DNA of 64,000 bases from Nymphaea colorata (lineage: Eukaryota; Streptophyta; Magnoliopsida; Nymphaeales; Nymphaeaceae): contig NC_045141.1 of the NCBI RefSeq assembly GCF_008831285.2, positions 9,720,106 through 9,784,105 on the forward strand, written 5' to 3'. Below the pieces are notes generated by a model that saw only the letters and a program-made list of their open reading frames with translations, was not told the DNA's origin and searched no databases. The translations under genes were made by a program, and so were the position numbers. Positions within the stretch are counted from its first letter, which is position 1. Every line of letters starts with the position of its first letter. This document shows positions 5,175 through 50,065 of this stretch, in pieces.

Positions 5175-5394
5175 TGTCATCACCCCAAATTTTTCAAAAA
5201 TATATTTCAACAAATTTACAATAAATTTCAATGATATTGGGTCTCAAGCACTTCAATTTCCCTTCATTTTGATAAATTCTTCCTCCCATTTGATGATTGA
5301 TCACACTTGTGACTCTTTTGGACTAATTTCAGACTTGGGACCCAAGTTCAACCACAACTTCTAATTGTTCCATGCTTTGGATCCAAATTTAAAT

Positions 5395-5700
5395 ATGGAT
5401 CAAGTCAAAATCCCAGCTCTAGGCCGAAAATAGATCCCAGATCCATATGCAAATCCAAATCCAAGCTCTATATCCAAAATAGATCTCTAGATCCATAGGC
5501 ACATCCTAATGCCAGCTCTACACCCAAAACAGATTCTTAGATCCATATCTGAATCTAAATCCCATATCTGAATCTAAATCCCAGTTTTACATCCAAAGCA
5601 GACCCTTAGATTTGGATCTGGATCCAAATCCCAATTCAGGATCAATAATAGATCCCAAGATTTCAATCTGGATACAAAACTATGTTCTAAATAAAAAACT
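5395..5700. repeat. degenerate minisatellite in LTR copy 1, about 55-60 bp units
   Basis: About five imperfect units share the order 'ATCCAAATCCxAGCTCTA', 'CCAAAA(C/T)AGATC' and 'TAGATCCATA'. The array is in the upstream (U3) part of the LTR. The other three LTR copies have only a short related stretch there, so expansion is specific to this copy. Confidence 0.65.
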
Positions 5701-6617
5701 AAGCCACAAATCCAAATTCAAAGCTTAGATAAAAAATCCAACCTCAGATCTGGATCCAGATTCAAGCTTCAGATCCAAAATCATACCCCTGATCTGAAAA
5801 ACAAAACCAAAATCTGTAATTGAACCCGAAAATGGAATTAGATCTAGAAAATCACTCATCGACCCAAAGTAGATCCAAAAGCCAAAATTAGAATCCAAAT
5901 CAAAATTTCAACTCAAAATCTAAAATTGAGTCCAAGAATCCATCCTGGCACTATTCAAATCCCCGCACATATGCTGGAGCCTCCCCTTGGCTTTTCAAAT
6001 CAACTTCGCTTCGTACAATTTAAAAGTGTATTTAAAATGTGCTTTTTAGCATAAAACACCTATTTAATCTCCAACCAAAAGAATGTGATCTAGATTGAAA
6101 TCGAACACGAAATTGCCAAAAATGGAGTTGGGCCTATTTTATAAAGAGACTATTTTGCCCTTTAAACAATATTTATATTTTTAATATCAATTTTAAAATT
6201 TTCTAGGTGAGACCCACCTGTAGAGGGCAGTGGCAAGTGCTACCCTCACTGGGTCAGAAATGGGCCAATAAGGGGGCAATTTGCCCTATTGTGCACTCTA
6301 GCCAAGGCCACATGACAGTGCTAAGCATGCTGCACAGCACGGCACCAATCCTAGCTGCACGTGGCCTGCCGTGCCCAAGGCAGGACCTGCCACCCTGGCA
6401 GGCCCTATTTTAGGAGAAAACCGCTCCCTTGGGGGCAGTTTGCCTCTCTTTTGTGGGATTTAGCCCTACCAACACCCTTCAAAAGGTGTTTGCAAGGCTG
6501 ATGATCCAGTCCCTTTAGTCAAAACCTATGAAAAATGAAAAAAATAATAATTCAAAAATTCTAAAATTTCGAATGAAACTAGAAAAATTCAAATTTTGTG
6601 TTTTTGCTCCAATCTTC

Positions 6618-6627
6618 TATATAAATA
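6618..6627 (+). promoter_or_regulatory. LTR TATA box, copy 1
   Basis: TATATAAATA is followed by ACCC. The corresponding positions in the other copies read TATAAATA (29886-29893), TATAAATG (35378-35385) and a shortened TATACC (47713-47718). The shared position and direction set the orientation of all four LTRs. Confidence 0.7.
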
Positions 6628-8637
6628 CCCTTCATGTCTTCGTCTTTGGGTAGGAGCTAATCCATGTAGAACTTTTTGAGTCCAACTGGAAGTTTTAGAA
6701 GTTTTTTCCTTAGCTCATTCCCTCTCTCCCTCTTCTAACACTTAGCTTCTTCAACATTGGGCTTCATCTTCTTATTTATCTTCAACGGCGCACGTGGGAA
6801 GTGCTTGGAGAGTTTCATCAATACGTTGGAGTCCCATTCTGAAAGTATTTTTGCTCATTCGAAGTAGAGGTTTCATTTTTCTTCAACTACGGTATTTAGA
6901 AGCATGTAATCACTTCCCCTCTTGCTTTTTTCCTTCATCATCTTTCCATGGCCATCTCCCCATGGCCATGCAAGAAAGCTCTAAAAATTTTCTCTTTGGA
7001 ATCAAGAGCCACTCCTGAGTACACTGGGAGCTTGAGCAAGGTAAAGTGAAACTTCATTTTCTTTTCATTATTATCAATACAAACATGCATGACTTATGTT
7101 TCTTTTCCTTCTATTTTCATTGAATGCATGCATTGGCTATGTCTTTATCATAATATGCATGCACGACTACTTTATTTCCCAATTCATATATGAATGAACA
7201 ATGAGAATGAGAGCTTGGATTGGAATTTCTTTGTTTTACAATGAATTTGTGTTTGGGTCTTGTTTAACCCGAGAAATCCCTATGAATATGTATATGTTAA
7301 AATGCATTATCATGTCATCTCTGTGATTTTCTTTATTCTCTTGACAAATCACTTGTTAATACTCCGATTATTAATCCTAAAAGGTGTGCTCTTTGTTATT
7401 ATTTAATGTCGTTTGTAATTAGTTTCTCTCTCATACCCAATGGTAGAAGAGACATGCTTTCTAGTAATAGATAAGAGAAAATTAAATATGATCATTTTCT
7501 TGATATATAGGCTATGGAGACTTAGGCTAGGCTCCCTCTCATGAGCTCATGTTTCTCACCGGCCCACATAGAAAGAATGAAGTCAGAAATCCTCAAAACT
7601 ATCTCTTAAATCTTAGTTTTTGTATAAGAAAAGAAATCTCTCTCTCTCTTACCAATTTCTCTCTCTTCCTACATCTTTCTTTCTCTTAAGATTTCTATTT
7701 CCTCTCTTTGATTTTTTTTCTTTTAAAATTTCTCTCACTTACTAATTTCTCTCTCTCTACGTCTTTCTTTCTCTTAAGATTTCTATGTCTCTTCGTTCTC
7801 TTTAAATTTTTCTGTTTTCTTTAAGTTCTCTCAATTTCTCTTTTTTTATGAACATATTTTTTCCTTGCTTTGTTCCAAATATCTTCTCCCCAAAATCTAA
7901 GTTTTTGATTTTTATTTACCGACTCAATTAATGCATCCATCATTGGAGCCATGTTTGGTGGCCTACAACTCAAATATGTTTCCAAAACTTTTTCTTGAAA
8001 AGGCTGTCATGGTAACAACATTTAAAAAAAAAAAACATATACCAAAAGAACAAAAGTTTAGATGTATGTGATGGTATGATGTCTTAGATGAATGTTGTGG
8101 CAGGAATGCATAAGTTACGTTTAAGCGTATAGAATTAATACAGTCATACATCCATAATCACTTACGGAATTTCTGAATGAACACAAGCATTTTTCTAAAA
8201 AACTTAAGCAAGAGGAGGTGCTAACTGTAATAACCGAATTAGAACAATATCTTTGAACCGACTTAAGATTTCAAGAGATCAAACTTAGCTTTCAAAATTC
8301 TAAGACTACTTTCAAAAAAATTCTCGATTCTAAAAGATTCCTCAAATCAAAACTATTAACTATTCAAAATTTGCTCATCTGTCGATAAAAGTTTATGAGA
8401 TATTTATCTTCAAAATAACTTATTTTCCAAGCACCACACTGCGCCACACTTAGGTTGAAGATGAAGTTCAAGTGAATGTGATATATCGAGAGTGAATACA
8501 ACCCTTAGATTAGTTACACCTAGTAAAGGTACCGGGAATGGCCAATCCTCATAACGACTCGTGAGTCTCTTTTTCATTTTTAAAAAATATTTTTCTGAAG
8601 CACTCCAAAAGTCGAAACAAATCTTGGGAAGCAGACA

Positions 8638-17609: not shown

Positions 17610-20600
17610 TTATATGTCAATATACATGGCCAGTACATTTGGCCTAACCCAAGAAACATCATCAACTATTTGTGATATTTCAATGTTGTAAAATTCACTT
17701 CCAAAATTATTATTCACTTCATCAATTATTGCATCTGGCATAGTTTGTTTCCTTTGCATATCAAACAAGCCTCTAAGTCTCACTTTAACAACAACTTGAC
17801 AATCTGTGTCAATAGGATCTTCAACATCGAAAACCTGTTCCACTTGAGCTGCGAGTACAAATGGTTCAGTTTCCATACATGTATATTTTGAATTCAGTAG
17901 CACAAAGCCGAACTCATTTTTCTTCATTCTTTTAGCATTTGAACTCAAAACATTGAACCATTTACACTTAAATAGAGCAAACTTTATATCTCCATTGTAT
18001 TCAACCTCAAAGATGTCTGTAATAACTCTATAATAAGTAACCTCAGCAAGAACTAGATTTCTATCTTTTACACTTGAGAAACTTAAAGTTTGTGTACCCG
18101 TAACAATGCTGCTGCTTTGAGTTTTCTTTTTTACTTCCTTTTCAAGTGTATGAATTCAAAATTCATTTATCACAAAACTATTATATTTTCTCACTATCTT
18201 TTGATTATATTGTGAAAGCCATATAAGTTCATATCCAATTGTTGGTCATTTTTTCTTTGATGTAACTAATAAATCTATAACAAATAAATGACTAACTATA
18301 TGATGTTTTATAATAATACAAATTAGAAATAAAAGTACGTCAAATAACAATATTTCAATTATATGATCTTGAAACCATTCGGAAAATTCGATCTTACGCA
18401 AGTGTTCAATGTTACGAGGCATTTTATATAATTATTGTATTCTCAACAAGTGCAGATGTTTCTTAATGGAAACTCAACTTATGAGTATAATTTCAATTTT
18501 AAGGACATCTCAAAATTAAAAAAACTAATTAAGTTAAGAACTTACTGAAGCTAAAGTGCCACTAAAGGATGATTAAACAATATATAAGTGTGTAGTTGTT
18601 GAAAAATTAAATTGTCTATAGTAAACAATGCATATGCTCCCAAAAATTGTCATTTCCTCAATAATATAGAACTTTGTTGATTCAATTTCTTCATAATTTC
18701 TCTCAAGATATTTCTTCAGCTAAATACCCTTCTACAATTGATCCTTCTAGTTAGTCGAAAAAGTTGAAAACATAATACTAGACATTAAAGCAAAATAAAG
18801 TACCTTTCAATAGGAAACATCCAATGGTATTGAATAGACCCACCCACAAAAACTTCATGAGCTAAGTGAATAGGCAAATAAATCATGATATCAAAGAATG
18901 TATGTGTAAATACTTTTTCTGATATGACACAATATCAATATAATTTGCTCCACTCAAATGCTTCAAATCTTTTTTTTTCTGACTTTTGTATATAATTCCT
19001 AGAAAAAACTACACAATTCAATCAATACTGTACTTTTTTTTGTAAAGATTTTCGTAAGGCTAATGGAAGGAATTGATGAATCGACATAGGACAGTCATGA
19101 CTCTTTAACTCCGCGATTTTATGCATCCAATGTGAAATATTTGAAGCATAACCATCTGGAACTTTCAAATTCCTCAAGACTTTACAAAATATGTTTTCTT
19201 TTCTTGTTCATGGTGAAACATGCTGCTAGCAAAAATATCTTACCAGCTCCATTACTTGTTTGTGGGTGAAGACCATGTCTTATATTCATTGCTTGTAAGT
19301 CCAAATGAGAATTATAATGATCTTTTTGTCATTTCTTCCAAATTCAACAATGTACTAACTATGTTGTCACAAACATTTTTTTTGATATGCACTACATCCA
19401 AGTTGTGACGTAATAAGTTATACTTTCAATATGGCAAAATGAAAACTATACATTTTCCCCAATTATACGACCATAGTTTATGTTCCACTTCTTCTAATGT
19501 ATCAATTCTAGAAAGAGTTGAAGGAGCACTTCTTAATTTTTCAGTCCCATCAAATGAACATTTGTCCAATCTATATGCATGATATGCAAACAAAAATCTT
19601 CGATGATCCATATATTATTCTTTAGAACTATTTATTAAACAATAAGAATGTTTATCCTTTTGGCATATAGGGCATGCTAATTTTCCTTTTGTGCTTCAAT
19701 CTTGATAAATCTCCATCAGTAGTAAAATCATTTATGGTCCATAATAAAGCTGCATGTATCTGAAAAACTATTTGTTGCTTGCATCATGAGTATCTACACC
19801 AAATTCCTACAACAATTTTAATTCATCAATTAGCATATGCAAATATCAATCTTTTCTCCCAAAGAATTTCACCTAGACATTAACAAAAACAAATTCATGT
19901 ATGGTTGTTTCATATACATACATGGTGGTAGATTATATATAACAATGATGACAAGTCATATACTGTATGAAGTACTCAAAGTATGAAATGAGTTGAAATT
20001 GTCACTTGCCAAACCAAGTATGATATTGTGACTGTTTAATGCAAAAAATAGATGTAATTTATCAAAAGATCTTCATGTCATTGAATCAGCTAAATATTTT
20101 AATAAACCATTTTTAATGTGTCCTTCATAATGCCATCTTATTATTGAACCAATTTTTTAATAAAAATACATTCTCTGAAGTCTTGGCATTAATGAAAAGT
20201 GGTGCACAATCTTCACAGAAATCTTTTAAGTTATGCTTTGATTTTCTTGTTCTATATTTTCTCTCCATCTAGAAGCACCACATATGTCACATTGATCTTT
20301 AGCACTTGCTTCTTTGCAAATTAACGTACAATTTTGAGGACATGTGTCGTTCTTTTCACAAGTCACGCCCAATGCTCTAATAGTTTTCTTTGTTTCATAA
20401 AATGATTTTGGTATTTGCACACCTATAGGAAATGCTTCTTGCAATTCCAATAGCATATCAAATGATTCATTACTCCATTCATGTAGACACTTTATGTGAA
20501 ATAACCAAATAATGAAAGAAAACATGGAGAACTTTTCACATCCTTGATACAATTCTTATTTAGTATCATTTAGCAACTTTGCATGTTTGTTATTATGGAT

Positions 20601-22886: not shown

Positions 22887-23989
22887 CTGAATCAGTAGAC
22901 ATGCAGAGGAAGGTCAATTAACGTGTGAAGGAAAGACAAGAATCCTACCACATTCATAAATCAAGAGAAACCAACTATATTCAAGCTGGCCCACGTCCTT
23001 GGGAACATAATTGCAGTTGGCTTATAAGGAAAATTTGACCATTATCAGTTGCATGAACCTTCTAATTATCAATATTCCTAGACTGTTAATAATTTTCACT
23101 CCTGCATGAACAAGGTAAAAGCAATCAATTATTCAAATGCATATAATAGACCAGATGACATTAAAAGCATTGTTGGCAGATCGTGAAAATGTTACACTAG
23201 AAAACAAATGACCTGACAACATTGAGTTTTTCAAATAGTATCCAAGGATCAACATATATGGGTTTAATCATCAACATATATTAGCAAACAAATCACATAA
23301 ATCTAACTACAATATCTTAAGGAAGCATTTGTGAGTACTGCTCGTGTAAAATTTTATCGATTCTTCTATTCTCATTCAAAGGCAATCCTTATGCTTATGA
23401 ATTTGAAGAAGTAAATCTGAGAGCGAGTGGGAGATGCTCCGTTACCTAATTTACTATGTTGTGAAGACATTAACTTGATAATACATGAAAGTTGGGTAAA
23501 CAGTTCTGCAAAGAGGCAGAACAACCAGTCTTCCTTCCTCTTGTGCAGTCACATATTTGACATCTCTGCAAGAGAAGAGGTTGAAACATCCAATGGATTT
23601 GATTTCATTGATTGCTTTCTAATTCCTGATTTTGAAACATACTCTTGTGTATTTCTTCCAGTTCGGACAAGAAATGTTGTTTCTATGCAAGCTTGCCTTG
23701 GTTTGCAGTTCAACAGATAATAATAACAATAACAATAATAATAATAATAAGGATATGAAATTTCCAAGCAAGTGAAAAGGCTAATCAAATATTTATTCAT
23801 TGGGACGTTTATATATAAAATCCAGATCTTAACCTAATTGCATATATGCATGAGAACTTCATTAGCCTGTAGGGCAACTTTTAATTAGCTATGATCAATA
23901 TAACAATATGAAAAAACTGAACAGAAAATACCCACATGTTAGGAGTTAAGGAAAAGTAGATCTCACTAATTAATTAAGATTGCCATTGA
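22887..23989. other. non-coding stretch
   Basis: No gene is recognisable. An (ATA/ATAACA)-rich microsatellite lies at about 23717-23750. An open stretch of 97 codons at 23427-23720 resembles nothing known and has no splice or promoter context. Confidence 0.5.
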
Positions 23990-25105
23990 TATTAGAAACA
24001 AGCATGATGAATGTCTATAAGATTTTCGAGCTTCAGCTTTACTTTTTCGTCACCCAATCAGTTGGTGAAGATGGTTTTATTATGATAATCATACACTTTC
24101 CCCATTCATATTTATATGCATATATATCGCCTAACTGAGCATGATTGCTGTGCCCCTAACAATATTGGTTCAACATTTTCCATGGCTTAGCATCAGAGAA
24201 TATTCTACTCCACTTAAGCACTTTGGAATTATGTGATTACACTTTCCTAAGAAGACAAACACATTAAAACACATTATATATGTGCTCACAAGTTGCAATG
24301 AGGATATATATATATATAGCCTTGGGAAATTAGCAAGCAATGCAGCCATCCATAAGAAATCAAAGGAAGGGAAAAAACAGTTCTTTTATAAGACGAAAAC
24401 AGTACTACTTATAAAAAAAAATTAAATCCTGTTTTTTTTATTCTGACCCTAAGTGTTGTTTTGAAATGAACCGGTGCTTAGCTAGTGTACTTTCATGCAT
24501 TTGATAAATCCGACTTTGCTAAGAAGTTTCGTCTTGCATGTTATTAGCACAAGTATGATAAACGTTTATAAGATTCTCTGGCTTCAGCATTATTTTTCGT
24601 CACCCAATAAGTTAGAGAAAATGGTTTTATTGTGACAATCATACACTTCCCCTATTCATATGTATGCATATATGTCACCTAAATGAGCATATTGATGTGC
24701 CCCTAATTATATTGACTCAATATTTTCCATGGCTTAGCATAAGAGAATATTCTACTCCACTTAAGCATTTTGGAATTATGTGATTACACTTTTCTAAGAG
24801 GACAAACACATTATATGTATGCCCACAAGCTGCAATCAAGAGATATATAGCCTTAGGAATTTAGCAAGCAATCATTCATTACGTTGGATATTTGCAGCCA
24901 TCCATAAGAAATCAAAGAAAGGGAAAAAAAAGCAATTCTTCTATAAGACGAAAATAATACTACTTATTAAAGAAAAAATTAAATGTTGTTTTTTCATTCT
25001 GACCCTAAGTGTTGTTTTGAAATGAACCGGTGCATAGCAAGTGCACTTTAATGCATTTGATATATCCAACTTGGCCAAGAAGTTTCATCATGCATGTTAT
25101 TAGCC
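23990..25105. repeat. tandem duplication, unit about 555 bp
   Basis: Unit A (about 23990-24545) and unit B (about 24546-25105) run in parallel. Shared landmarks are 'GGCTTAGCATCAGAGAATAT' (24184) against its one-base variant in B, 'GCAGCCATCCATAAGAAATC', and 'TTGTTTTGAAATGAACCGGT' ending at 24475 and 25031. Small indels separate the units, and similarity by eye is near 85-90%. Unit B has an extra stretch around 24870-24895. Nothing coding is seen in either unit. Confidence 0.92.
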
Positions 25106-27789: not shown

Positions 27790-28948
27790 TGTGTTGCTAT
27801 ATATCTTAATTCTACTAGTGTTCGAATCAAACATATGAGCAATTTCTTTCTCAATATACAAAAAAAGACAATCTATAATTTGCAAACAATTCATCATACA
27901 TTTTGTTACACAATCTTGTTTTAATAAGTTTAATAGTAGAGCATGCCCTTTGTGTCCTTTGTGTGGTTGCAGTGGAAACAAAGAGTGTTAGAATGAGACT
28001 AAGCAACTTGTATGCATAGGGATATCATTCACTTTTTCTACTATGTATGAATGCTTGACACACATCTGATTGTACTCAAATTTTGAAAATTTGGATCATG
28101 ACAAATATCATTCTTATAATGTCTCAGTGGACATCTTAAACTCATAAAATATAACTATGAAAAATCTTCAGGATAAAATTTCTATGCAAGAGTGTATGCA
28201 TATTATGCATTAAATGACTGACATTGATCTCTAAGGTCAAGTGTTGATATCGAACTAAGTATTCCTTCGAATTCTCGTTAAATATACTATTCAACTCTAC
28301 CAGTTGAGAATCAATAGCAACAATAAAAATATTGACATGATAATGATGTCTCACTGTGATAAAATCATGTTCACAATGAGAACGTGATTATCTGACATAA
28401 TATTGGGCATCCATATCTAGAATAGGGATATCATGTGACATACAAAATGCTTACACAATATCTATAAATGAATCTCAATCAGTCTCTCTAAGCACTTATG
28501 GAAACTCTTTTAAATTATAAACCAAAGTCATTGCATTTAAAATGTCTTGTCCTTGCTCTTGCAATGCCTAAAAAAGAGTATCACTTTGTCTCAAAATTTC
28601 TTGTACAAAGTACAAAACAAATACAAAGTCAAACGATGTGATCATTTTATACCTTCACCCCATATTTGAGATGTCAATCCATTGTCTCTTAAATTTTTGA
28701 ACACTACATAAGTTGCATTGAACTTTTTTACCAAACCACATATGGACAAAAAATGTGATCATCATCTAGTATCACCACATCGCTATAGTGATCAAATTTT
28801 ATTAAGTCAACTTTATGTTTCAAGGTCATCTATAGCAATTCTAGATGGAATTTCATTTGCTTGAGTTTTATGCAATTCATCATTACATTTACTGCTTGCA
28901 TTAATAACATTAATTACAAATGTTAACTATTCAAAAAAGTTATGAACA
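27790..28948 (-). pseudogene. hAT transposase (DUF4371/TTF-finger type), C-terminal half
   Basis: Read down from 28948 on the minus strand, the segments are 'NASSKCNDELHKTQANEI', 'CGDTR' (for GDTRW), 'ALQEQGQDILNAM' and 'ITVRHHYHVNIFIVAIDSQL'. The dimerisation region at about 28000-27790 includes 'VSTATTQRTQRACSTIKLIK', in the place of the family's 'VATATVERAFSAMxIVK', followed by 'YIEKEIAHMFDS'. These are the ordered landmarks of plant DUF4371-type hAT transposases. The other half is at 37541-38455, on the far side of an 8.59 kb retroelement. Many stops make it non-functional. The terminal inverted repeats of the hAT element were not identified. Confidence 0.88.
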
Positions 28949-31900
28949 TGTTATCACCCCAAATTTTTTCAAAAGACTACTTTATTTTCACTGAAACGAA
29001 ATTCTCAGTTATTTAGATTTAATTTTTTTTTTACCCTAATCTCATTCCTAGAACCAAAACAAGTTCACAACTATTCGATCTAAAGTGAATTTCTAAACCC
29101 ATGAATGAACCCAAACACAAAACTCAAATTCAAAACCCAATTGTAAACGTGAGATTCAAATCCAAAATCCAACTCTTGGATCCGAATTAGATCCAAAACC
29201 CAAGCCAAAATCAAGACAACAAAATTTGATTCTAAGAGCACCGCACGCGCATGATGAACCTTCCCTTTGTTTTATGTTTCATTATCATGCCAAGATATGT
29301 TTTGATCTTAAATCACTCACTAACGCATCGATGACCAATTGAACCCAATCCAGATTTAAAACGAGCCTGGAGTCACTCAAAACGGAGTCGACCCTCCATT
29401 TGTAATAAAAACCAATTTTATACATTTAAAAAAGGGCTTTATGTATTTTATATGAACAGCCTTTTATTTTATTTTGTTTTATTTTATGAAAAAAATTCTA
29501 GTTGTGTGTGACCGCATGCACCGCATCATGGGATCGTGTGCACAATCGCATGTGCATGGAAAGCGCGTTGCGTTCTACAGCACACTGCTACCCAACATGC
29601 TAGGTTTAATAGTGCCTGTTACTCGACAACGCCTGAACCGGGGCCTGCGCGTGTCGCAGGCCCAATTCTTATGCTAAAACCAGCCCATAGGCAGCGGTTT
29701 TGGCCCTGTTGGGTGGGCAATAGCCCTGCCCACACCCCAAAGGGTTTTTGCAGGCCTAATGGCCAATCCCACCTAGTCAAAACCTATTTTAAAAAAAAAT
29801 TAATTCAAAAATACTTGGAATTCGCATGAAAATCCTGTTAAATTCAAAAAAAATTCAAATTTTGTGTTTTGACTCCAAAACTCTCTATAAATACCCCCAT
29901 AATCTTCCCTTTCGGGCATGAGCTAATCATTGGGAGAACCGCTAGTGCTTCCTCACTTGAAAATATAGAGTTTTTCTGAGCTCTTTTTCCATTCCTCTCT
30001 ATTTCTCTTCTTCTTCTTCTTCTCTATGCTTGGGATCAAGCTTCTCCAAGTTTCAACTCATTAAGGAAGCATAAGAAGATCCCTTGGAGGAATATCTTCA
30101 TCATCTTGGAGCTTCACCCAAGACAACCTTTGGATCATCCGAAGAAGGAGACCTATTCATAAAATCATCTATATTAGAGATACCTAGTCATTCTCTTGTT
30201 TTTTTTTTTTTTCATTTCCTCTTACCACCTCCCCATGGCTATGCAAGAAAGCTCTAAAGATTTTCTATCCAGAATCGAGAGCTACTCTTAAGTGCACCAG
30301 GAGTATGCGCAAGGCAAAATAAATTCCATTTCTTCATTTCTTTTCAAAAATATGTTTGTTATGTTGCTTTATTCATCGTTTATGTTTGAGGTGATGTCCA
30401 TGTGTGATAGATTAATTTTCATTAGTTAATGAGTAAATGCATGGCAAGAATGAGGGTTTGGTTTGGGATTTCTTCATTCTTATGTTGATTTTTGAGGTTG
30501 GGATTTCTTCAACCTGGACACAAATATGTACATATAAAAATGCATCTGTACGTCATACTTACGTTTATTTTTTTTTTTCCTAATCACCCGATTAGGGACC
30601 CCAATGAGTTCTTTATTACGTTGCTCTCTATTTTATGAGTATTTGATTTTCTTCCATACACAATGGTGGGAGAAATAGATTTTCTCATAATAAACATAGT
30701 TTTATGTTCACAGATAAAAATATTTGGATTCATGTTTTCCAAAAGATTTTCGAAAGCAAGAACCCTCTTTAATGAGGCCTTTGAGACTTAGCCTAAGCTC
30801 TTGCATGAGCTGAAGTTTCTCTCCGGCCTATATAGAAAAATTGAACTTGGATATTTTCAAGTTATTTCTTGATTTTAACTTTCATGAAAGCATATGCATA
30901 TATATACGTGCACATGACTATCTATCTTTCTTTTTTTTTATATATTTTAACATATTCTTTTACAAATGCCTATACACGTACATATGAATATATATACACG
31001 TTTTTCACTTTCTCTATCTCTCTCTCTATCATTCTAAAATATTCTTCTTGCTCTCTTTTCGTGTTAACACTTCCTTTTCACAAGCTTTCATATACGTATA
31101 TAATACATATGTATATATAAGTACGTGAATGTATACATACACCTCTCTCTTTCTTTAAAAAAAAATCTTTTATTTTGTAATTTTCAAATCTCTTCCCCTC
31201 TATCTTTCCCTATGTCTTTTGGAATAAAGTAATTCTTTTTTCCATTCTTTTGAATATTTTTCTCCCATAAGCTAAGGTTTTAATTTCTCATTTGGCAACT
31301 TCACTAAGACCAAAACTCAACTGATGACCTAATATTAGGATCATGCTTGATGGTCTACAACCCAATTCCATTTTGAAAAATTTATCTCTTTTCATAAAAA
31401 TATTTACCACAATTATACAACTATAAATGAAAAACTTAAATGTATGTAGTGGTATGAATGTTTTTAAATAAATAGGAATGAGTAATGTGCTTTTAATCAT
31501 ATAAGTTTTAGTGCATTCATACGTTTACATTCACTTGTGAAATCACGAATTATCACAAGAACCTCTCTAAATGAACTTAGGCAAGATGAGATGGAGCTAT
31601 AGCTTGAGAGTAACCGAATTAAGCAAAGTCTCAAACCTACTTAATTTCTTAAGAGAACACTAAATCGATTTCCAAAGCGATTTTCAACTGTCTTCAAATG
31701 ATATTTGTAAAGATTTCTAAATTAAAAATTTCTCAAATCAAAATGTTTTACACTCACAAATGATTCTTCAAAACTTTTTCAAAAATTTGAAACATTAAAA
31801 TTTCACTATTTTCTCAAACACTACACCGCATTTAGAAAATAAAGATGTTTAAGCTAAAATGAAATGCATCAAGAATAAACATAGCTCTTGGGTTGGTTAC

Positions 31901-32025
31901 CCTCTGGTAAAGATTCTGGAATGGTCAATCCTCATACTGATGGGCCATTCTTTTTCTTTCTCATCAAATAAAGCCTCATTTTTTTGGAGCACTCCAAAAA
32001 CCAAAATATTTTGGGGATGAAAAAA
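28949..32025 (+). repeat. 5' LTR (copy 2)
   Basis: It begins TGTTATCACCCCAAATTTTT and ends TTGGGGATGAAAAAA, the last two bases CA being mutated. The TATA box is TATAAATA at 29886-29893. Upstream of it is a G+C- and CpG-rich block at about 29505-29760. The apparent open frames in this block (for example 29536-29829) recur in the 3' LTR with changes and are not genes. Confidence 0.9.
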
Positions 32026-32027
32026 GA

Positions 32028-32045
32028 TGGTGACTATGATGGGAA
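32028..32045 (+). other. probable primer-binding site
   Basis: TGGTGACTATGATGGGAA starts 2 bases after the 5' LTR. It is close to the TGGCGACTCTGCTGGGGA-type site I recall for Tat/Ogre elements, with transition-like changes. The position is exactly right for tRNA priming; the tRNA identity is inferred. Confidence 0.6.
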
Positions 32046-34031
32046 CCGTCATCGTCAAGCCATGATTATTATTAATGCATTTCCACTAACTTGAACATCT
32101 CTCATATTGCCGATTAATAAGCATGACCTCTTCTTTGGCCTTGACACCCTAGGCATGATGTTTACATATAAAACTAATTGTGGAGGATCAATCATGTTCA
32201 CCAAATTTAAGATCAAATATAACCCTCATCAATGTAAGGCTTGATTAAAAACAATATTTGATCTTCTACTTATTTTGGTCATTATCCTAAAAAACTTTGC
32301 ATTAGAGACAACTAATTTTGAATGTGTATTCATATTTCAAAAATTTTCAATACCTATTTGTCCAGTCATCATGTTGTCAGGTTTGATCTTAGGCAGTAGC
32401 ATAAAACTAAACCTTACAACATAACCAAACCATGGGTAGAAAAGTACCTTTATTAGTATCATGAGTGGTAACTTATGGTATATTAACAAATGACTAAGGA
32501 GAAATGAGAAACTCAGCTCTTAGTTGCCTAATGGAGAAGTCTATGCTCGTACTAAGCCTCTTGGCTAAGGTATATTAGCATATCTTCTATGAAATAATCA
32601 TAATTGATCAAACCAAACTCAATTAGGTTCTTATGATCCTTTTTCAAATATATGCATGATACATGTAAGTGCTGGATGTTTGTCTTCCATACACTCTTTA
32701 ATCAATTTAATAAATTTACATTCTATCTTCCTCATTTAAATCGTCTTGTTGGATCATCTCTTATGTAGTCTTCAATATGACCATGTCATAAACCCATGCT
32801 TTAACCCTACTACCTATATGGCATTGATTCATCAAGTTCTATCATTTGGCAAGTCCATTTTTTTTAAGAACTGCTCCAAAATCTACATTTTATCATACTT
32901 TGTCAATCTCTCATTTGTTCTTTTGTCCAACCTTCTACTCTTGAACATGGTACCCATCTATTGGTTCAATTACCAACTTTGCTTAACTCAGGTCATGCAT
33001 TATCCTCCTTTATATTTAGCCACATAATTTTCTAGCTTTAATACTCAGGGTGCACCTCCTCCTATTTTACTACTTCCATGATTTTATTGAGTCATCAATT
33101 ATTCCAGGTTGATTGTCAACCTTTGTTTTACTTCAGTATATTCCATTTTCAATTGTTGGTTCACCCATATTGAGTCTATATGAATCAAACATCATGTATT
33201 TATTCTATTCCGCTTGAAATTTAATCATTTCAAAATTAAGATTATTCATAAATAATAGATTGCTCATGATTTTCTTTGTTTTCCTATATTTTCAACTTCA
33301 TATCTTGCTATGAGAATCACTATCTACCGATCTTTTAAAAAAAATTCCTACAAGCTTGGTCCCAATTGCTTATCATTAAAGACAAATCAAAAATTCTTTC
33401 ATACCTAAGCTCATACACATGATATTACCTTTTACCCTCATTTTTCTATTAGCGAAAAATATATCAATTTCCTTTATATAATTTTGTCCACACCTTTTTT
33501 TATTGGTGCATTTTTCATTATTTTCTTCGCCTCAATCGATGACATTAACCATCTATCTTTTGCCCAATACATGGCACATTCTATTTTGAATCAAATCCTA
33601 TCTTTTGACATGACAGACATTTTTTTAATTATGAATATTTTGAGGTATCTTCTAAATTGCTTTCGTGACATATATATATTTTTCTTTCACAAAATCATGC
33701 TTGTCCATCAAGAAAAAAGGTCATATCCAAATCAAATCAACTCAGCTGCTAAGCTAAAATTTGATCAAGCGTGATTCGACCTCAATCCCAACCCAAGACA
33801 TCAACCAACGGCATTCAATGCAAGCTCAACCCAAGCACTAGTTTGGTGAATTTTATTAAGCAAGTCCAAAATCCAGCCTTCGGTGAAAACAAAAACTTCA
33901 CCATAAGGAACTCAAGGTGATAGGAAATCTTCTTGTCACAACCAATGTAGGAGCAACAGAGTCTCATTCCTAGCTTCAACAAAGGTATTTGTGGTAATAA
34001 AGGTTCTTTCCTTTCATTGCTACTTGTTATC
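32046..34031. other. internal region of the LARD-like element, no coding capacity recognised
   Basis: It holds A+T-rich sequence with two open stretches (32746-33027 and 33484-33774) that have hydrophobic, low-complexity translations and no similarity to gag or pol domains. I treat them as chance frames. Confidence 0.6.
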
Positions 34032-34290
34032 GAGCAACCCACTTAGCCAAGGGATAAAACCTGAAATTATGGATAAAAGAGCAACCCACGTAAGTAAGGG
34101 GTTAAACTTGCAATGTAAGCCAAGAGCAAGCCACGCAGGTAAGGGGGTTAAACCTACAATGCAAGCCAAGACAACCCATTTAGGGGAGTTAAATCTGAAT
34201 TCAATTTCGGCAAACCCATGCAAGTAAGAGGTTAAACCTACAACATAAGCTTAGATAACTCATTCAGGTAACAAGTTAAGCCAAAAACAT
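34032..34290. repeat. tandem array of six 39-47-bp units before the polypurine tract
   Basis: Units start at about 34032, 34079, 34124, 34170, 34209 and 34253. The consensus runs roughly GAGCAACCCACG, then AGGTAAGGGGTTAAACCTAC, then AATGCAAGCCAA. It ends 75 bp before the polypurine tract. Tandem repeats at this position are a recurrent feature of Tat/Ogre-type elements. Confidence 0.88.
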
Positions 34291-34365
34291 TACTCCAAAC
34301 ATATTTTGTTTGGAAAATCCGAGGTGCTCATCTTGTCACTAAGCACAACTAGTGCCGGTTTAGTA

Positions 34366-34376
34366 ACAAAGAGGGG
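34366..34376 (+). other. polypurine tract
   Basis: ACAAAGAGGGG, followed by CATT, lies directly before the 3' LTR. This is the expected plus-strand primer position. Confidence 0.65.
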
Positions 34377-34380
34377 CATT

Positions 34381-36561
34381 AGTTATCACCCCAAATTTTT
34401 CCAAAAGAATATACTTTACTTTCACTTAAACAAAATTCTCAGTTATTTAGATTAAATTTTTTTTAGACCATAATCTCATTCTTAATCCCAAAACAAGTTC
34501 GTGACTATTCGATCCAAAGTGAATCAATAAACCCATGTCCAAACCCAAACACAAAATTGAACTTCAAATTCAAAACCCAACTTTAAATGTGAGATCCAAA
34601 TCCAAAATCCAACTCACGGATTTGAATTAGATACAAAACTCAATCCGAGATCAAAACAACAAAATTTGATGCCATGAGCATCGGCGCATCCACAAACCTT
34701 CCTTTTGTTTTATGTTTCGTTTTCGTGCTAAAATGTGTTTTTAAGCATAAATCACTCACTAAAATGCGTCATTGACTAATTGAACCTAATCCGAATTTAA
34801 AACGAGCCCGGAGTCAATCACAATGGAGCCGGCCCCCCATTTGTAACAAAAAGCATTTTTATACATTAAAAAAGGGTTTTATGCCTTTAATATGAACAAC
34901 TTTTATTTTATTTTGTTTTGTTTTGTTTTGTTTTGTGAAAAAAATTTAGTCGCTCAAGTGTCGTATGCAAGCGATGGACGCGTAGTCGCAACTACGCATC
35001 GCGCGATGCGATTGCATGCGCGATCACATGCATGTGTGGCAGCGCATTCCGTGCAGCAGTGCGTTCCGTGTGCCGCTCGCCGACGTGCTAGGTGCAATAG
35101 CGCCTGGAATGCGATAGCAGCCGAACCAGGGCCTGCACGTGGCACAGGCCCCATTCTCATGCTAAAACCGGCCCTTGGGCAGTGGTTTTGGCCCTGTTGG
35201 GCGGCATTAGCCCTGCCCACATCCCAAAGGGGTTTTTGGGGTTCTAATGGCCAATCCAACTTAGTCAAATCTATTTTAAAAAAATTGAAAATAATTCAAA
35301 GATACTTAGAATTCGCATGATAATCTTGTTAAATTCAAAAAAAAAAAATCAAATTTTGAGTTTTAGCTCCAAAAGTCTATAAATGCCCCCACAATCTTGC
35401 CTCTTGGGCATGAGCTAATATTTGGGAGAAACTCTAGTGGTTCCTCACTTGAAAATCTAGAGTTTCTTCATCTTTCTTTTCATTTCTCTCTTCTTCTCTT
35501 CTTCTTCTTATCCAAGCTTGGGAGCAAGTTTCTCCAACTTTCAACTTTTTAAAAAAGCATAAGAAGAACTCTTAAGGGAATATCTCCATCATCTTGGAGC
35601 TTCACCCTTAGGATCATTCGGAGAAGGAGATTGATTCATATAATCATCTATATTAGAGGTATGTAGTTATTCTCTTGTTTCCATTTTTATTTTCATTTCC
35701 TCTTGACACATCCTCATGGCCATGCATGAAAGTTCTAAAGATTTTCTATCCCAAGTAGAGAGCTACTCTTAAGTGCACCAGCAGTATGAGCCAGGCGAAA
35801 TAAATTTCATTTTTTCAATTCTTTTCAAAAATATGCTTGTTATGTTGCTTTATTCATCATTTATGTTTGAGGTGATGTCCATGTATGATATATTAATTTT
35901 ACTTAATTAATGAGCATATGCATGGTGAGAATGAGGGTTTGGTTTCGGATTTCTTCATTTGTATGCTGATTTTTGATGTTGGGATTTGTTCAACTTGAAA
36001 AGGCCCCTTCATGAATATGTACACTTTAAAATACATCTTCATGTCATTCTTACATTTAGTTTCTTTTTTAATCGCCCGATTAGGGTCCCAATGAGTGCTT
36101 TGCTACGTTGCTCTCCATTTCATGAGTATTTGATTTTCTTACATATGTGGTGGGTAAAATAGATTTTATTGTAATAAACATGGTTTTAGGTTCATATATA
36201 AAAATATTTGGAACCATATTTATCAAAAGATTTTCGAAAGCAAGAAACCTCTTTAATGAGGCCTTTCGAGACTTAGCCTATGCTCTTGCATGAGCCCAAG
36301 CTCATCTCCGGCCTACATAAAAAAATTGAAGTCAGATATTTTTAAGTTATTTCTTGATTTCAAACTTTCATGAAAGCATATGCATATATACATGTTATAT
36401 ACGTATACGTGCACATGGCTATCTCTTTTTTTTCTCTCTTTATGATTTAACATATTCTTTTACAAATTTTTATACACTTACATATGAACATATATATATG
36501 CCTTCCACTATCGCTCACTCTTCTCCCTCTCCATTCGATTTAATACTTCTTTTTCACAATC

Positions 36562-36603
<42 letters not shown>

Positions 36604-36685
36604 GTATATATAAATACGTGTATGTATACATACCTCTCTCTCATTCTTTAAAAAAAAAAAAATCTTTTATTTTGTGACTTTAAAA

Positions 36686-36727
<42 letters not shown>

Positions 36728-37535
36728 CCTATTGCTCTCGAAATAAATTATTTTCTCCTTTTCATTCTTTTAGATATTTTTCTCCCAAGAGCTAAAGTTT
36801 TAATTTCTCATTTGTCGACTTCAATAAGACCAAAATTCAAGTGATGACCCAATATTAGAATTATGCTTGATGGTCTACAACTGCATTCCATTTTCAAAAA
36901 CTTTTCTCTTTTCATAAAAATATTTATGACAATTATACAAATATAAATGAAAAACTTAGATATATATGATGGTAGGAATGTTTTTAGATAAATGTTATGG
37001 TAGGAATGGATGATTTACTTTTAATCATACATTTACATTCACTTGTTAAATCATGAATGATCATAAGCACCACTCTAAAAGAACATAGGCAAGATGAGAA
37101 TGAGCTCTAGGTAGGTAGCAATCGAATTAGAGCGAAGTCTCAAACCAAATAAATTTCTTAAAAGAACACTAAATCAATTTCAAAAGCGATATTCAACGGT
37201 TTCCAAATGATATTTATAAAGATTTTTTAATTAAAAATTTCTCAAATCAAAATGTTTTATACTCACAAATGATTCTTCAAAACTCTCAAAAAATTGAAAC
37301 ATCAAATTTTCAATATTTTCTTAAACACTACACGGTATTTAGAATGAAAAGATGTTTAAGTTACAATAAAATGAATCAAGAATAAACATAGCTTTTGGAT
37401 TGGTTAACCCCAGTAAAGTTACTGGGAACGGTCAATCCTGATACTGACGAGCAAATCCCTTTCTTTCTAATTTCAAAATAAAACCTCATTTTTCTGGAGC
37501 ACTCCAAAAACCAAAATATTTTGGGGATGCAAACT
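34381..37535 (+). repeat. 3' LTR (copy 3)
   Basis: It starts AGTTATCACCCCAAATTTTT (first base mutated from T) and ends TTTTGGGGATGCAAACT. The TATA box is TATAAATG at 35378-35385. The CpG-rich block lies at about 34970-35240. It also holds a (TA)n run at 36566-36598 and a (CT)n run at 36692-36722 that are shorter or absent in the 5' LTR. Confidence 0.9.
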
Positions 37536-37540
37536 GAACG

Positions 37541-38785: not shown

Positions 38786-39268
38786 ATCTGAAATTTAAAA
38801 AAAAAAAACATAAGATTCAAATTAGCCAAGAAAAAAAAATTTAAGAGTGCATGCATCTAAAATTTGAAAGAAAAAAAAAAATCATAACCTCGTATCTTAG
38901 ACAGAACCCCTAATTCTCAAATGAGTCCAAGACCAATAGAAAACCCCTAATCTGCATATTAAAATTGAAAACCTTGACATTGAAATATAGAAGGCAATTA
39001 AAAGAGACTAATTAAACTAATTACATCCTTAAATAAAAAATAACATAAATTTAAGGGAGTGCAAGACATATACTAATGTGAAATGAAAAAGAGCTAATCA
39101 AATTAATTACATGCTTAAATAAGAAAAAAACAGAATTTAAAAGAGAGCATGAATCTGAAATTTAAAAGAAAACCCCCTAATCTTAATCAAAACCCCTAAT
39201 TCTCAAATGAGTCCATGACAAATAGAAAACCCCCAAATTTGCATGCTAAAATTGAAACCTTCACATTG
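38786..39268. repeat. direct repeat about 287 bp apart
   Basis: 'AACCCCTAATTCTCAAATGA' plus about 90 bp of following sequence (to 'CATTGA') occurs at 38905-38986 and again at 39191-39268. Each is preceded by 'CTGAAATTTAAAA'. The block between them is A-rich. It lies just outside the N-terminal end of the hAT gene, so it may be subterminal sequence of that transposon. Confidence 0.8.
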
Positions 39269-39299
39269 AGGGAGAGAGAGAGATTCATGGAGCACATTT

Positions 39300-39384
39300 T
39301 ATTGTGTCCAATGGATCTAACTAATATTTGGTCTAGATGCATTGGGCAGTAATATAACATAATGTTACTATTCCCAAACGGCCC
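39300..39384. mobile_element. partial PIF/Harbinger-like MITE end
   Basis: The right end is 'TACTATTCCCAAACGGCCC' followed by TAA, the 3-bp target type of this superfamily. The left end is not identifiable. It truncates the Copia remnant. Confidence 0.45.
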
Positions 39385-39387
39385 TAA

Positions 39388-39953
39388 AAGAACATTAATC
39401 AGCTTACCATTGTAGCTTATTTGCATCTTACAAATATTATCAACTGGAACATGTGTTCTATCACCAATGCAACGTGGAAATTGCTTGCTTTGTATATGAC
39501 ACAGCCTTTTGAGTCTCATGTTCATGTAGTTACTAGCACCACAATCAAGTATCCAATAACAAAAATGGATACTTGAAATTTTACCAAGATTTTTATATAT
39601 TTGTCAGCTTTGTCAAATTTCTTACTAGTAGGAGATGGCAAGATTGGATCTTGACATGTGCTATAAATGTTTTCCAAGTTCTTCGATGAATCGAAACTGT
39701 ACATGTTGCCAAGCTTGGGGCTATTGTACTTTGTGTCAACATTGACTGTGCTTACTATAAATCCTACTAGTATGTAGAAATTTTTATCTTCTTTGAGGTG
39801 CTCGGTTATAAGTATTTTGCTTTCAATTCGACAACTTGACCAAAACACTTCACGAATTTGAGGCACAGTTGCTGCAGCCTTGTTGATCCACCATTGAGTC
39901 ATGATTAGGAATGTCAATGGATCGGATTCAAATCGAATATACCTTAATTGCAT
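39388..39953 (-). pseudogene. Copia gag-protease remnant
   Basis: On the minus strand at about 39575-39530 a frame reads 'FCYWILDCGASNYMN'. It corresponds to the 'WILDSGASxHM' active site of Copia proteases, with the Ser changed to Cys. It is followed by 'CIGDRTHVPVDNICKMQISY', matching the downstream flap region. Upstream (39953-39580) is an open stretch with 'FSSKKFDKADKYIKIL'-like sequence where the gag-protease linker should be. One frameshift separates it from the protease. A MITE end cuts it at about 39385. No integrase or reverse transcriptase follows. Confidence 0.75.
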
Positions 39954-41184
39954 CCACTTTTTTAGATGTTCACATATTGGGATTCAAGTACGTACAAAAA
40001 AACATCATTTCCGAATTCAAAATCCGATTTCACAACTGAATCCAAATTTTGAATTGAATTTGGCTGATTTTCAAAATGTAACCACATTAAATATAGAATA
40101 TCTGTTTAAAAATAAATTTGATCTCAATCTGTATCCGAATCCAATCTGATGTCATTTCTTAAATCCAAATCGAATCATATTTCTTAATCGCATGTTAAAT
40201 TTTTGTTCCACATCCAAATTATAAGATGCAAATAAGTCTTCAAATTATAACCTCAAAATGTGCAATGGTACCATGTTAAACATTACAAGAGCAACAAACA
40301 AGAAAGAAGAACAATGATTGACGTCGTTGCAACTTGATGCCTACATCCACAAGAGAAAGGAGATAATTGACTTTTCATATGCAGCGAAAGGTTAAATAAA
40401 TAGGGGCTGAGCACCCAAAGAAACGCCGTAAGAGTAGATGGGATATTTTGGTAACTTTCTAAAAAATAATGTCTTTTTTCAGTTTTTTATTTTTTCCAAT
40501 TTCTATTTTTCTCTTGCTAAAAATTTTTTTTCAGTGTAAACTGATGGTATTTTCATCATTAACCACACTGGCGCACTAAATTTTATACACCAGTATGGTG
40601 CATACAACTAGGATCACTCCTATACTTGCTTCCTTTGCCTTGGTTGAGTTTGATAATAAAAGGGGCTGCTATTGCTGGCCTTTTACTACCAAAAAAAGCA
40701 CTGCAGCCTTTGCTAACCTTTTTCAAGTGGCAGACTATTGCTTGGGGAGATATGTGGATCGGTGTTTAAAAGGTGTGTCATCAGACTCTCATGCATTGAA
40801 AATGGTGCAAAATGTGATCCTTTAGTTGACATGTATATCATAACCCACCTGCACCGTGAAGGCAAAAATATTGGTGGAGGGGCAGCCCTTTTTTCAGGCA
40901 TTTTCTGCTCAATGAAGATGGCAGAATGTCAAAAAGAAACCCGATTAAGGGGGAAACGGCAGCAGCCCCTTTGTTATTGAAGAAGAGAGCTACATTCTTC
41001 TGTTGGCCCTTCTTAGGGAAAAAAAAATTGGCAGAGAGAGAGGGGGGTGAGCACTGTGAAAGGATAGAGAAAAAGAAGGGAGACGATCAAGAGGGAGTAA
41101 GGGCGGCCAAAGGGCAGACAGAAAAGGGTAGAGAGAAAGAGGGAAGGAAGATGCAGCTCCAACGGCAGAGGGGAGAGTAGGACG
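39954..41184. other. non-coding stretch; no gene seen
   Basis: It holds degenerate 'AATCC(A/G)AAT' words (39900-40200) and a GA-rich part (41030-41180). Open stretches on both strands here have biased low-complexity translations and no recognisable domains. Confidence 0.5.
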
Positions 41185-43260: not shown

Positions 43261-43834
43261 TCAAAAGCACGCATCCAAAAGGCAGCAGCAGCAGAGAGCA
43301 GCCAGACTGCAAAGGAAGGAAATCACAAAGAATAATCAACAAAGAGCACAAACGCAAACGGATCTCCTGATCGCTGGACTCCAGCTAAGAGACTTAAGAA
43401 GAAGAAGAAGACACACCATCCTTCCATGAAAGAAGGGCCAGAGCTCTGCTGTTGTTGAGGCGGTGGTTGGGCGTACTGAGGGTACCCCTGAGGAGGATAG
43501 GCTCCCGGCGGAGGATAGCCTCCCTGAGGAGGGTAACCCTGCGGAGGGTACCCCGGCGGCGGCGCAGGATACCCCGGCGGTGGGTAGGCGTCCTTGGGAT
43601 AACCCTCTGGTGGGTACCCTGCAAGGTAAAAGAAAGAAAGAAGACAGATCAGAAACCCCTATCCTTCGAAGGAAAGACAATAACCCTAATTCTTTCACAA
43701 GATCTGTGACAGAAACAAGAACAAGAAAAGCGAAGGACTAGGCATTGTCATGAGAGAGAGATAGAGAAAGAGGGGTAACCTTGGGGAGGAGGGACGCCGA
43801 CAGGCGGTTGGTGATGCTGATCGTAGTAGCTCAT
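43261..43834 (-). CDS. CYSTM / WIH2-type cysteine-rich small protein, 3 exons, intact
   Basis: The exons are 43834-43780, 43618-43417 and 43306-43261 (303 nt, 100 residues plus TGA). Both introns (161 and 110 bp) have GT-AG borders and pyrimidine-rich acceptors. The protein starts MSYYDQHHQPPVGVPPPQG, continues with YPP-type repeats (GYPPQGYPPQGGYPP), a Gln run, then SSGPSFMEG and the tail CLAALCCCCLLDACF. This N-terminal Pro/Gln/Tyr-rich part plus a short Cys-rich hydrophobic tail is the CYSTM family layout. The tail is thought to anchor the protein in membranes. Members are linked to stress tolerance, and WIH proteins to megasporogenesis. Length, start and stop all match family members I know. 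It is the only gene here with no visible damage. It lies alone among repeats and is probably expressed. Confidence 0.96.
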
Positions 43835-43925
43835 CTTCTTCTCGTTCTTCCTCCTCCCAAAGGGTTCGTTCACAGATGAGAGAGAGAGGGAGAGAGAGAG
43901 AGGAGGTGGATGGGGCTCTGCTTTT
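43835..43925 (-). promoter_or_regulatory. 5' UTR / core promoter of the CYSTM gene with pyrimidine patch
   Basis: Upstream of the ATG, the minus strand has a long CT run (about 43876-43902 on the plus strand as GAGAGA) typical of plant Y-patch promoters. It is followed by 'GTGAACGAACCCTTTGGGAG'. The transcription start cannot be fixed. Confidence 0.5.
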
Positions 43926-43937
43926 GTGGTAAGGAGT

Positions 43938-43956
43938 GACGCGTATAGAACGCGTC
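43938..43956. promoter_or_regulatory. inverted CGCG-box pair in the CYSTM promoter
   Basis: GACGCGT-ATAGA-ACGCGTC is a perfect inverted repeat with 7-bp arms and a 5-bp spacer, about 105-120 bp before the ATG. ACGCGT fits the CGCG box (V-CGCG-B) bound by calmodulin-binding CAMTA factors and also CE3-type ABA elements. Binding is inferred. Confidence 0.6.
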
Positions 43957-44214
43957 CCTTTCTTAACCGTGGGGTGGGTTGGAATCCGCTGGAGCGTCAG
44001 TGGAATCGTGCGTGACCATAACAAAAGATGAGACACGACGGTAGAGAAAGTTGAAGTGTCTCTGTGACAGCTGACTTTGTAACGGACTTTTAGAAGATGG
44101 GAAGCAAATACCGGACGAGATAAGCGAGAAAGGGGGACGGATGGACTCGCATCTCCCGGGTGGCGCGGCAAATTTGGCTTTTTAATTTTCAGACCTGCCC
44201 TTTAGGGCCCCCGT

Positions 44215-46804: not shown

Positions 46805-48009
46805 TTACATCATCACACAAGCAATTAAACTTTTTATTGGCATGACTTTGACTTAGACCAAGCCCAAAACATATCCATATGGTTGTAATCACCCCAAATT
46901 TTTCCAAAATGCTATGCTCTTTTGCCAAAACACAAACCTCAATTTTTTGGATCTAAATATCCAAAACCCAACTTCAGATCTAAATCAAGCATTTGAAACC
47001 CAAAATTCTAAATTAAGTTCAAAATGACAAAATTTGAGCATTGTGCATATGCGGACCTTCCCTTTGTTTTAAGGTCTCATTCTCATGCCAAAACATGCTT
47101 TTAAACCCAAGTCGCATGCTCGAACGAGTCGACAACGGATAAACCAAAATCGAATTCAAGACGAGCTCGGAGTGGCCGAAATAGAGTTGGCCGTCCATTT
47201 TTAACAAAAACCTCTTTTGTTACACATTTTAAATACAAAAAAAAAGTTTTTACTCTTCCTATACAAACAACATTTTTTATTTTATTTTATTAAATTTTAT
47301 TTGATTTTATTTAAAAAATGAGTTTTTGTGCATCCCGCGACGAGCAGCCACGCGCGTAGGCGATCGCGGACCGCGTGACAGCACTTCGTGCGGCGTGCCA
47401 CCGCGCACTCGTGCATCGCACGATCACGTGACCACGAGCGCCATGCACGTCGTCGCACGCCCTCAAGTGCTTTTTCGCATTGGCATGTTGTCAAACTTCA
47501 TTTTTTCTTCAAAATCGACCGTTAGAGGGTGATTTTGAGAGTTTTAAGTGGCATTAGTACTCCCTACACCTAAAAAATGGATTTTCAGCCCTAATGGCCA
47601 ATCACACTCATTTCAGACCTATTTCTTTTTTAAAAAATTGAAAATAATGCAAAATTGAAAATTTTATAAAATTCAAAAAAATTGAATTTCGAGTTTTGGC
47701 TCCAAAACTCTCTATACCCCAATTTTCCACCTCTTGGACAAGGAGCTATCCCTTGGAGTAGCCTCAGTGCATTCTCACTTGAGGACTTAGAGTTTTTAGC
47801 TCTCTTCCTCTTTTTTCTTTTTCAATCTTCTTCTTCTTCTCCAACTTGGAGCAAGTTTCATGAAGCTATAACTCTTCATGGGAGCACCAAAGATTTCTTG
47901 GAGGCCTCCTCTTCATCACCTTGGAGCTCTATTCAAGATGAGTCATTTTTCCTTCAACCATTCTCGTTAGAGGTACGTGACATTCATCTCTATTTTTTCT
48001 TTGTTTTGT

Positions 48010-48350
48010 TTCTCTCTTCTTCATCTCCCCATGGCCATATGAGATAACTCTCAAATCTCTATTTTAGAGTCAGAAGCTATGCTCGAGTGCACCAAGAGCA
48101 TGAGAAGATGAGATGATATTTCATTTTACGATTGAAGCATGTTCTCTCTTTTCTTGAATGTGGGATTGTTTTGGTTTTCTCATTTTCTATCTTCTTCATC
48201 TCCCCATGGTTATATGAGATAGCTTTAAAATCTCTATTTTAGAATCAAGAAGCTATACTCGAGTGCACCGGGAGCATGAGAAGATGAGATTATATTTCAT
48301 TTTATAATTGAATCATGCTCTCTCTCTTTTCTTAAATATTGTTTTGATAT
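48010..48350. repeat. tandem duplication of about 180 bp in LTR copy 4
   Basis: 'CTTCTTCATCTCCCCATGG' recurs after about 180 bp (from 48011 and 48190). 'GAGTGCACC' and 'GAGCATGAGAAGATGAGAT' follow in both. The other three LTRs have a single copy of this segment. Confidence 0.8.
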
Positions 48351-48837
48351 TATCCATGCATAGTTGTTTGATTTTCCATTTATATGTGGATGCACGGCGA
48401 GAATGAGAGTGTGGTTTGAGACTCTTTATTCTTATGCAAATTTTGAGGTTGGGACTTGTCCAACCCGGAGAGAACCCTCATGAATATGTACATGTTAAAA
48501 ATGCATTTTCATGTCATTACGTTTACTTTTCTTCTTAATCACCTAATTAGGAACCTTAATGAGTGCCTCATTATGTTGCTTGATTTTCTTCTATACCCAA
48601 CGGTGGAAGAAATATATCCATTGTAACAAACCAAATAATAACGTTCTATGTTTATATATAAATCATATTTTACAAAAGATTTTTGAAAGCAAATATCATC
48701 TCTAATGTAGCTTTGGAGACTTAGCTTAGGCTCTTGCATGAGTCCAAGCTCCCATTCAGCCTACATCAAACTTGAAGTCGGCTATTTTAAGTCATTTCTT
48801 GACTTTGAATCTCATGATGACACATATATATATATAT

Positions 48838-48930
48838 GTTATATACATATATGTGCACATATGTATATATATGTTATATACATATATGTGCACATATGTA
48901 TATATATGTTACATACATATATGTGCACAT
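48838..48930. repeat. 35-bp tandem repeat, about three copies
   Basis: Units begin GTTATATACATATATGTGCA at 48838 and 48873, with GTTACATACATATATGTGCA at 48908. Each unit contains the palindrome ATATGTGCACATAT. Confidence 0.92.
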
Positions 48931-50065
48931 GATGGTTCCCTTCATCCTTCTCTCTCTATGCTTTCACATTCTATTTTGCAAACTTTCATATGCACATGAA
49001 TATGTATATACATATGTTCTATTTCCTCTCTTTTGAATATTTTATTTCCCTTTTCAAGACAAATATCTTCCTTTACAAAATTTCTTATACATACACATAT
49101 ATACGTATATATATTACTCTTTTCCTCTAAAATCTCTATTTCTCTTCAAATAAATACCCATTTTCTTTTAAATTTTCATATATGTGTATATATGATAGTA
49201 TGTACACGTATATGCATGTCTTTCTCTATCTCTCTCTCTCTTTCTTTTCATGAGAATATTTCATCTCTTTTATTATTTTTAACATTTTCCTCTCATGATC
49301 TTTTTTTTTTTATTTACCGACTTCACTAAAACCAAAAATCAAGTAATGACCCAATATTGGATTCATGCTTGATGGTCTACAACCTCAATCCATTTTAAAA
49401 AAATTTTCTTCTTATATACGATAGTTATCAAAACAAAAATCTTGAGTGTATGTTATGGTAGGAATGCCTTTAGATGAATGTTGTGGTAGAAATGAATCAT
49501 GTAGAATCAATGCATTCATGCATCCACATTCACTTAACACCACAAATGAACACAAGCACATCTCTAAAAGAACTTAAGCAAGATGAGATGGAGCTCTAAC
49601 TAGGTAGTAACCGAATTAGAGCAAAATTTCAAACCTACTTAAAGTCTTAAGAGAACACTAAAGTAACTTCAAAATGATTTACCAAACTTTTCAAAATATT
49701 TTCCAGTTTTAGTTTTCTCCAACATATTTCACATTCTCAGATGATTCTTCAAGAACTTTTTCAAAAGTTTGAAACATCAAACTTTTAATATTTTTTTCAA
49801 ACACTACATCACATATAAAATGAAAAGATGTTTAAGTCAAAGTGAAATGCATCAATAATAAACAGAGCTTTTGGATTGATTACCCCCGGTAAAGGCACCA
49901 GGAATGGTTGATCCTCATACCGATGAGCGAGTCCCTTTCTCTCTCATTTTCAAAACAAAACTCATTTTTCTAGAGCACTATAAAAACCAAAAATTTTGGG
50001 GATGTGAACAATGGTGTGCTTGGTAATATACATACACCCTAACCTCTATTGTGTACCCATATTAC

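Follow-up and report, generated by a model that had tools for sequence, protein, structure and literature searches.

The Dasheng/RIRE2 pair of rice is said to consist of a non-autonomous LTR element that relies on a related coding partner; its likeness to the element described here is one of architecture, and no partner was found for ours. LARDs such as Sukkula of barley combine long LTRs with a noncoding core, lack gag and pol and are presumed to be mobilised in trans (PMC7215508, PMC8268840); PMC7215508 presents them as structurally uniform groups in which gag, pol and env are missing from every member, while PMC4668562 puts their conserved noncoding core at 'usually >4 kb'. Pol-deleted Ogre elements of Lathyrus sativus have very long LTRs and, ahead of the 3′ LTR, a tandem repeat; the account that describes them (PMC7004042) calls tandem repeats in the 3′ UTR common for the Tat lineage and mentions arrays of this type in Ogre copies without pol. 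For non-chromovirus Ty3/gypsy elements, PMC6317226 describes LTRs that reach about 5 kb and tandem arrays in noncoding regions. RLG_Sabrina/WHAM of wheat, whose autonomous partner is RLG_Wilma, lacks a full polyprotein and has LTR ends and a primer site common to the coding family (PMC9744471); for our element, in contrast, no pol-bearing partner that shares its ends is known.

The window analysed here, a stretch of 64,000 nucleotides, contains at 28949-37535 a single LTR-retrotransposon insertion, which we call element A (Table 1). Two direct LTRs, 84% identical over the 3003 ungapped columns of their full-length alignment, surround the interior. A preliminary description had delimited one insertion at these coordinates from its LTR pair, flanking duplications, primer-site-like sequence and polypurine tract, with LTRs making up about 73% of its length; every one of these features was found where expected, and the measured LTR share is 72.6% of 8587 bp.

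Table 1. Coordinates of element A, its parts and the related LTRs within the window.
Feature	Position	Strand	Details
Element A, whole LTR-retrotransposon insertion	28949-37535	+	8587 bp
Left target-site duplication	28944..28948		GAACA; partner GAACG, 4/5 bases
5′ LTR	28949..32025	+	3077 bp; 84% identity to 3′ LTR
TATA-box-like motif in 5′ LTR	29883..29894	+	CTCTATAAATAC; CTCTATA at LTR position 935
Interior	32026..34380	+	2355 bp; no recognisable coding sequence
Primer-binding-site-like stretch	32028..32045	+	TGGTGACTATGATGGGAA; TGG begins 2 bp past 5′ LTR
Short tandem repeat	34077..34178	+	Period 46, 2.3 copies; score 148, 84% matches; upstream of polypurine tract
Polypurine tract	34368..34376	+	AAAGAGGGG; 4 bp upstream of 3′ LTR
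3′ LTR	34381..37535	+	3155 bp
Right target-site duplication	37536..37540		GAACG
LTR C, older, related	5175..8637	+	Non-matching flanks ATACT / GTCCT
Solo LTR B, related	46884..50010	+	3127 bp; exact ATGGT at 46879-46883 and 50011-50015

The two flanking 5-mers form a short target-site duplication, and the chance expectation for a match of at least four in five bases between them is 16/1024. Only one LTR terminus in four reads TG, namely where the 5′ LTR begins; at its other end that LTR has a run of A, the 3′ LTR starts with AGTT (or TAGTT) and ends with AACT, and TG and CA are both present only in solo LTR B. The ends of element A have thus drifted, and its LTR boundaries are supported because the separate LTR B runs TGTAATCACCCC...GGGGATGTGAACA between its exact ATGGT copies. 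Compared with what we take to be the Arg-type primer site, the stretch at 32028 agrees at 14 of 18 positions, a match with four mismatches that speaks for a primer site by position rather than for a particular priming tRNA; it is the sole 14/18 match on either strand of the window, and a 13/18 match lies at 13564. A literature search with the start of that site, TGGCGACTC, gave none on LTR elements among the matches listed. The spacing of the TGG falls inside the 0-5 bp between LTR and primer site given for plant elements in PMC6317226. The TATA-like motif is aligned in all four LTRs, reading CTATAAAT in the 3′ LTR, CTCTATA in B and TATATAAATA in C, and on this sequence evidence may serve as a promoter.

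Within the interior we found no gag, pol or other replication gene, in agreement with the preliminary description. Translated in six frames with X at stops, 32031-34379 matched no Pfam family at E ≤ 1 in any frame (0/6), whereas an equally long control stretch treated in the same way (window 1-2351) gave matches in three of six (RVT_1, 9e-22; SH3_retrovirus, 2e-21; RVT_2, 2e-8; and an RVT_2 match of 0.007 below the cut-off). The control stretch contains decayed LINE and copia sequence, and the same method recovers decayed reverse transcriptases there. Seven interior pieces scanned singly yielded one match far below the cut-off (DUF997, E 0.089), and the one piece compared with the PDB had no match. 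Among the 103 listed reading frames of at least 75 residues in the window, 54 were scanned together, and ten families each matched one of them, the weak matches to MTBP_C, CRAL_TRIO_2 and NUP210 Ig being taken as chance. ARAGORN predicted no tRNA anywhere in the window.

Close to its 3′ end the interior carries the short tandem repeat, with GAGCAA starting at 34032, 34079 and 34124 and GACAAC at 34170. Autocorrelation over 34020-34300 peaks at 0.390 at lag 45, below the largest value from 500 shuffles (0.395; mean of maxima 0.336), and because this is within the shuffle range a longer array is not demonstrated. The interior (32026-34380) also has a CpG observed/expected ratio of 0.33, compared with 0.61-0.75 for the A and B LTRs and 0.39 for C; this low value may reflect longer methylation or a different origin of the interior.

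Dating by the LTR pair, which the preliminary description had proposed, shows that element A is an old insertion, since its LTRs are only 84% identical and the K2P distance between them is 0.18 (from an alignment extended slightly to 3013 columns, which has 287 transitions and 193 transversions); a recent insertion is ruled out by the same identity. Identity per 300 columns ranges from 0.75 to 0.87, and the 39 gap runs between the LTRs include none longer than 24 bp. At 1.3e-8, 6.5e-9 and 2.6e-9 substitutions per site and year, the distance corresponds to about 7.0, 13.9 and 34.8 million years respectively, so that the estimated age spans about 7-35 million years according to the rate chosen. 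PMC9744471 quotes the first of these rates as the usual one for plants.

We lean towards reading element A as an old, decayed non-autonomous plant LTR retrotransposon, probably of the Ty3/gypsy superfamily and perhaps of its Tat/Ogre group, that had lost gag and pol before it inserted and was copied in trans. It would have kept the parts needed in cis, namely LTRs with a promoter-like TATA motif, a primer site, a polypurine tract and the LTR ends. With gag and pol already absent, such a copy would have been transcribed from its own LTR; packaging of its RNA, tRNA-primed reverse transcription and integration would have depended on proteins supplied by an autonomous relative whose ends were similar. 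That the loss preceded insertion is suggested because the interior retains both its edges and the gaps between the LTRs are at most 24 bp long. Counting against this reading are the single interior known, the four primer-site mismatches, the shortness of the tandem array and the three of four LTR termini that depart from TG/CA.

A special case of trans-mobilisation, compatible with it rather than exclusive of it, is that element A belongs to a true LARD family, that is, to many insertions with the same noncoding interior, conserved for RNA packaging or dimerisation signals. We regard this as possible but doubtful. The long LTRs and noncoding core fit, as does the absence of recognisable gag or pol from all six interior frames, given that LARDs are characterised in PMC7215508 as uniform groups without gag, pol and env. 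However, a search of the window for a second interior, full or partial, found nothing beyond the element's own tandem repeat and one marginal match of 45 bp; the core, at 2355 bp, is below the 'usually >4 kb' of PMC4668562; and Rfam at gathering scores returned no family in the window. To count as a LARD, an element needs a noncoding interior that is conserved among several copies; for element A a single interior has been seen. The term 'LARD-like', used in the preliminary description, is therefore fair as a description, covering a non-autonomous element that has long LTRs and in which neither gag nor pol is detectable, and unproven as a classification, the small core speaking against it. We find it improbable that the locus belongs to a mobile, Tat/Ogre-related non-autonomous family whose 2.36-kb interior would be conserved in many insertions through an RNA packaging or dimerisation signal, and whose very long LTRs would be ancient (the 64 kb hold three insertion lineages, 59-69% identical).

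Element A could instead be a coding copy that lost gag-pol by deletion after insertion and was never mobile in its gutted form, an account that we consider rather unlikely. The single available interior and the age of the insertion (K2P 0.18) would both suit it, and large deletions are the origin given in PMC7004042 for Ogre copies without pol, the passage leaving their timing unstated. On the other side, both ends of the interior are retained and the locus shows no other large deletion dating from after insertion, the longest inter-LTR gap being 24 bp, although neither point is decisive. The idea that 28949-37535 holds unrelated DNA enclosed by two solo LTRs that happen to be neighbours, or by the copies of a duplicated LTR, is scarcely credible and was rejected: solo LTRs of the wider group (B and C) do occur in the window, but the flanking duplication encloses the pair rather than each LTR, the primer-site-like stretch and polypurine tract lie at the expected inner edges, and the two LTRs are 84% identical to each other compared with 69% to B.

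As to the lineage of the trans-mobilised element that we favour, assignment to Ty3/gypsy is probable and to the Tat/Ogre group tentative. We lean towards the latter because LTRs above 3 kb occur together with a 46-bp repeat upstream of the polypurine tract, features resembling those given for non-chromoviruses in PMC6317226 and for the Tat lineage and Ogre in PMC7004042, the repeat amounting to only 2.3 copies with an autocorrelation inside the shuffle range. Unlike the pol-deleted Ogre copies, element A thus has a short array, and it contains no Ogre coding sequence. Formal placement in Tat/Ogre rests on a polyprotein with an additional RNase H (aRH) domain and on position in the reverse transcriptase tree, and element A offers no coding domain for either; because it has no pol, the kinship is a lead, not a filing.

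Two further LTRs, B and C, lie on the same strand as element A. Globally, the LTRs of A are 69% identical to B (0.694 and 0.693) and 59-60% identical to C (0.602 and 0.589, with C aligned from 5200 and its first 25 bases left out), and B and C are 60% identical to each other. Local blastn pieces between A and B show 66-88% identity, mostly 70-76%. Identity figures of 79-82% for B and C from a further comparison are uninformative, three shuffled queries giving about the same, and only the scores separate them: 2174-2202 for B and 1507-1578 for C, versus 663-704 for shuffled queries. A 20-base stretch of the LTR end had no match among viral contigs.

Sequences belonging to one family are conventionally expected to reach 80% identity, and both B and C fall short of this with A. 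By that rule A, B and C would be different families of one wider group, and a single successful family at 80% identity comprising all three was rejected on the 59-69% identity between insertions. The preliminary description had counted four LTR copies in 64 kb and concluded that a non-autonomous family had been very successful. There are indeed four LTRs, but they represent only three insertion events (the A pair, solo B and C); success of such a family does not follow, as two of the LTRs belong to element A and the other two, at 69% and 59-60% identity to it, are without interiors and could derive from coding elements.

Elements of this kind are already well known, and element A exemplifies ordinary plant genome decay. 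It is of use chiefly to annotation, in which very long LTRs that lack a coding interior can easily be taken for intergenic sequence of unrelated origin. Were the interior found to be conserved in many copies, the locus would provide a further case for studying how LTR elements that are non-autonomous come to use proteins encoded elsewhere.

Other decayed elements surround it in the window. The LINE-type element in and beyond the control stretch occupies 1059-3293 on the − strand (RVT_1, 9e-22, with a weak Exo_endo_phos match of 0.037 below the cut-off), and the copia-type fragment lies at 92-1067 on the + strand (SH3_retrovirus, 2e-21; RVT_2, 2e-8). Two − strand stretches, 17613-18155 and 52507-52923, are CACTA-type remnants (DUF4216, 7e-16; Transposase_21, 6e-31), DUF4216 being presumably linked to CACTA elements, and 39199-39983, also on the − strand, is a possible copia-type remnant with a weak Pol_BBD match below the cut-off (0.0075). 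Proline/glycine/tyrosine-rich reading frames with GYPP repeats at 43326-43996 (− strand), in the kilobase with the window's highest GC content, perhaps represent a host gene; 43326-43658 had no Pfam match at 0.05. At 23980-25104 there are two head-to-tail copies of about 570 bp that are 82% identical.
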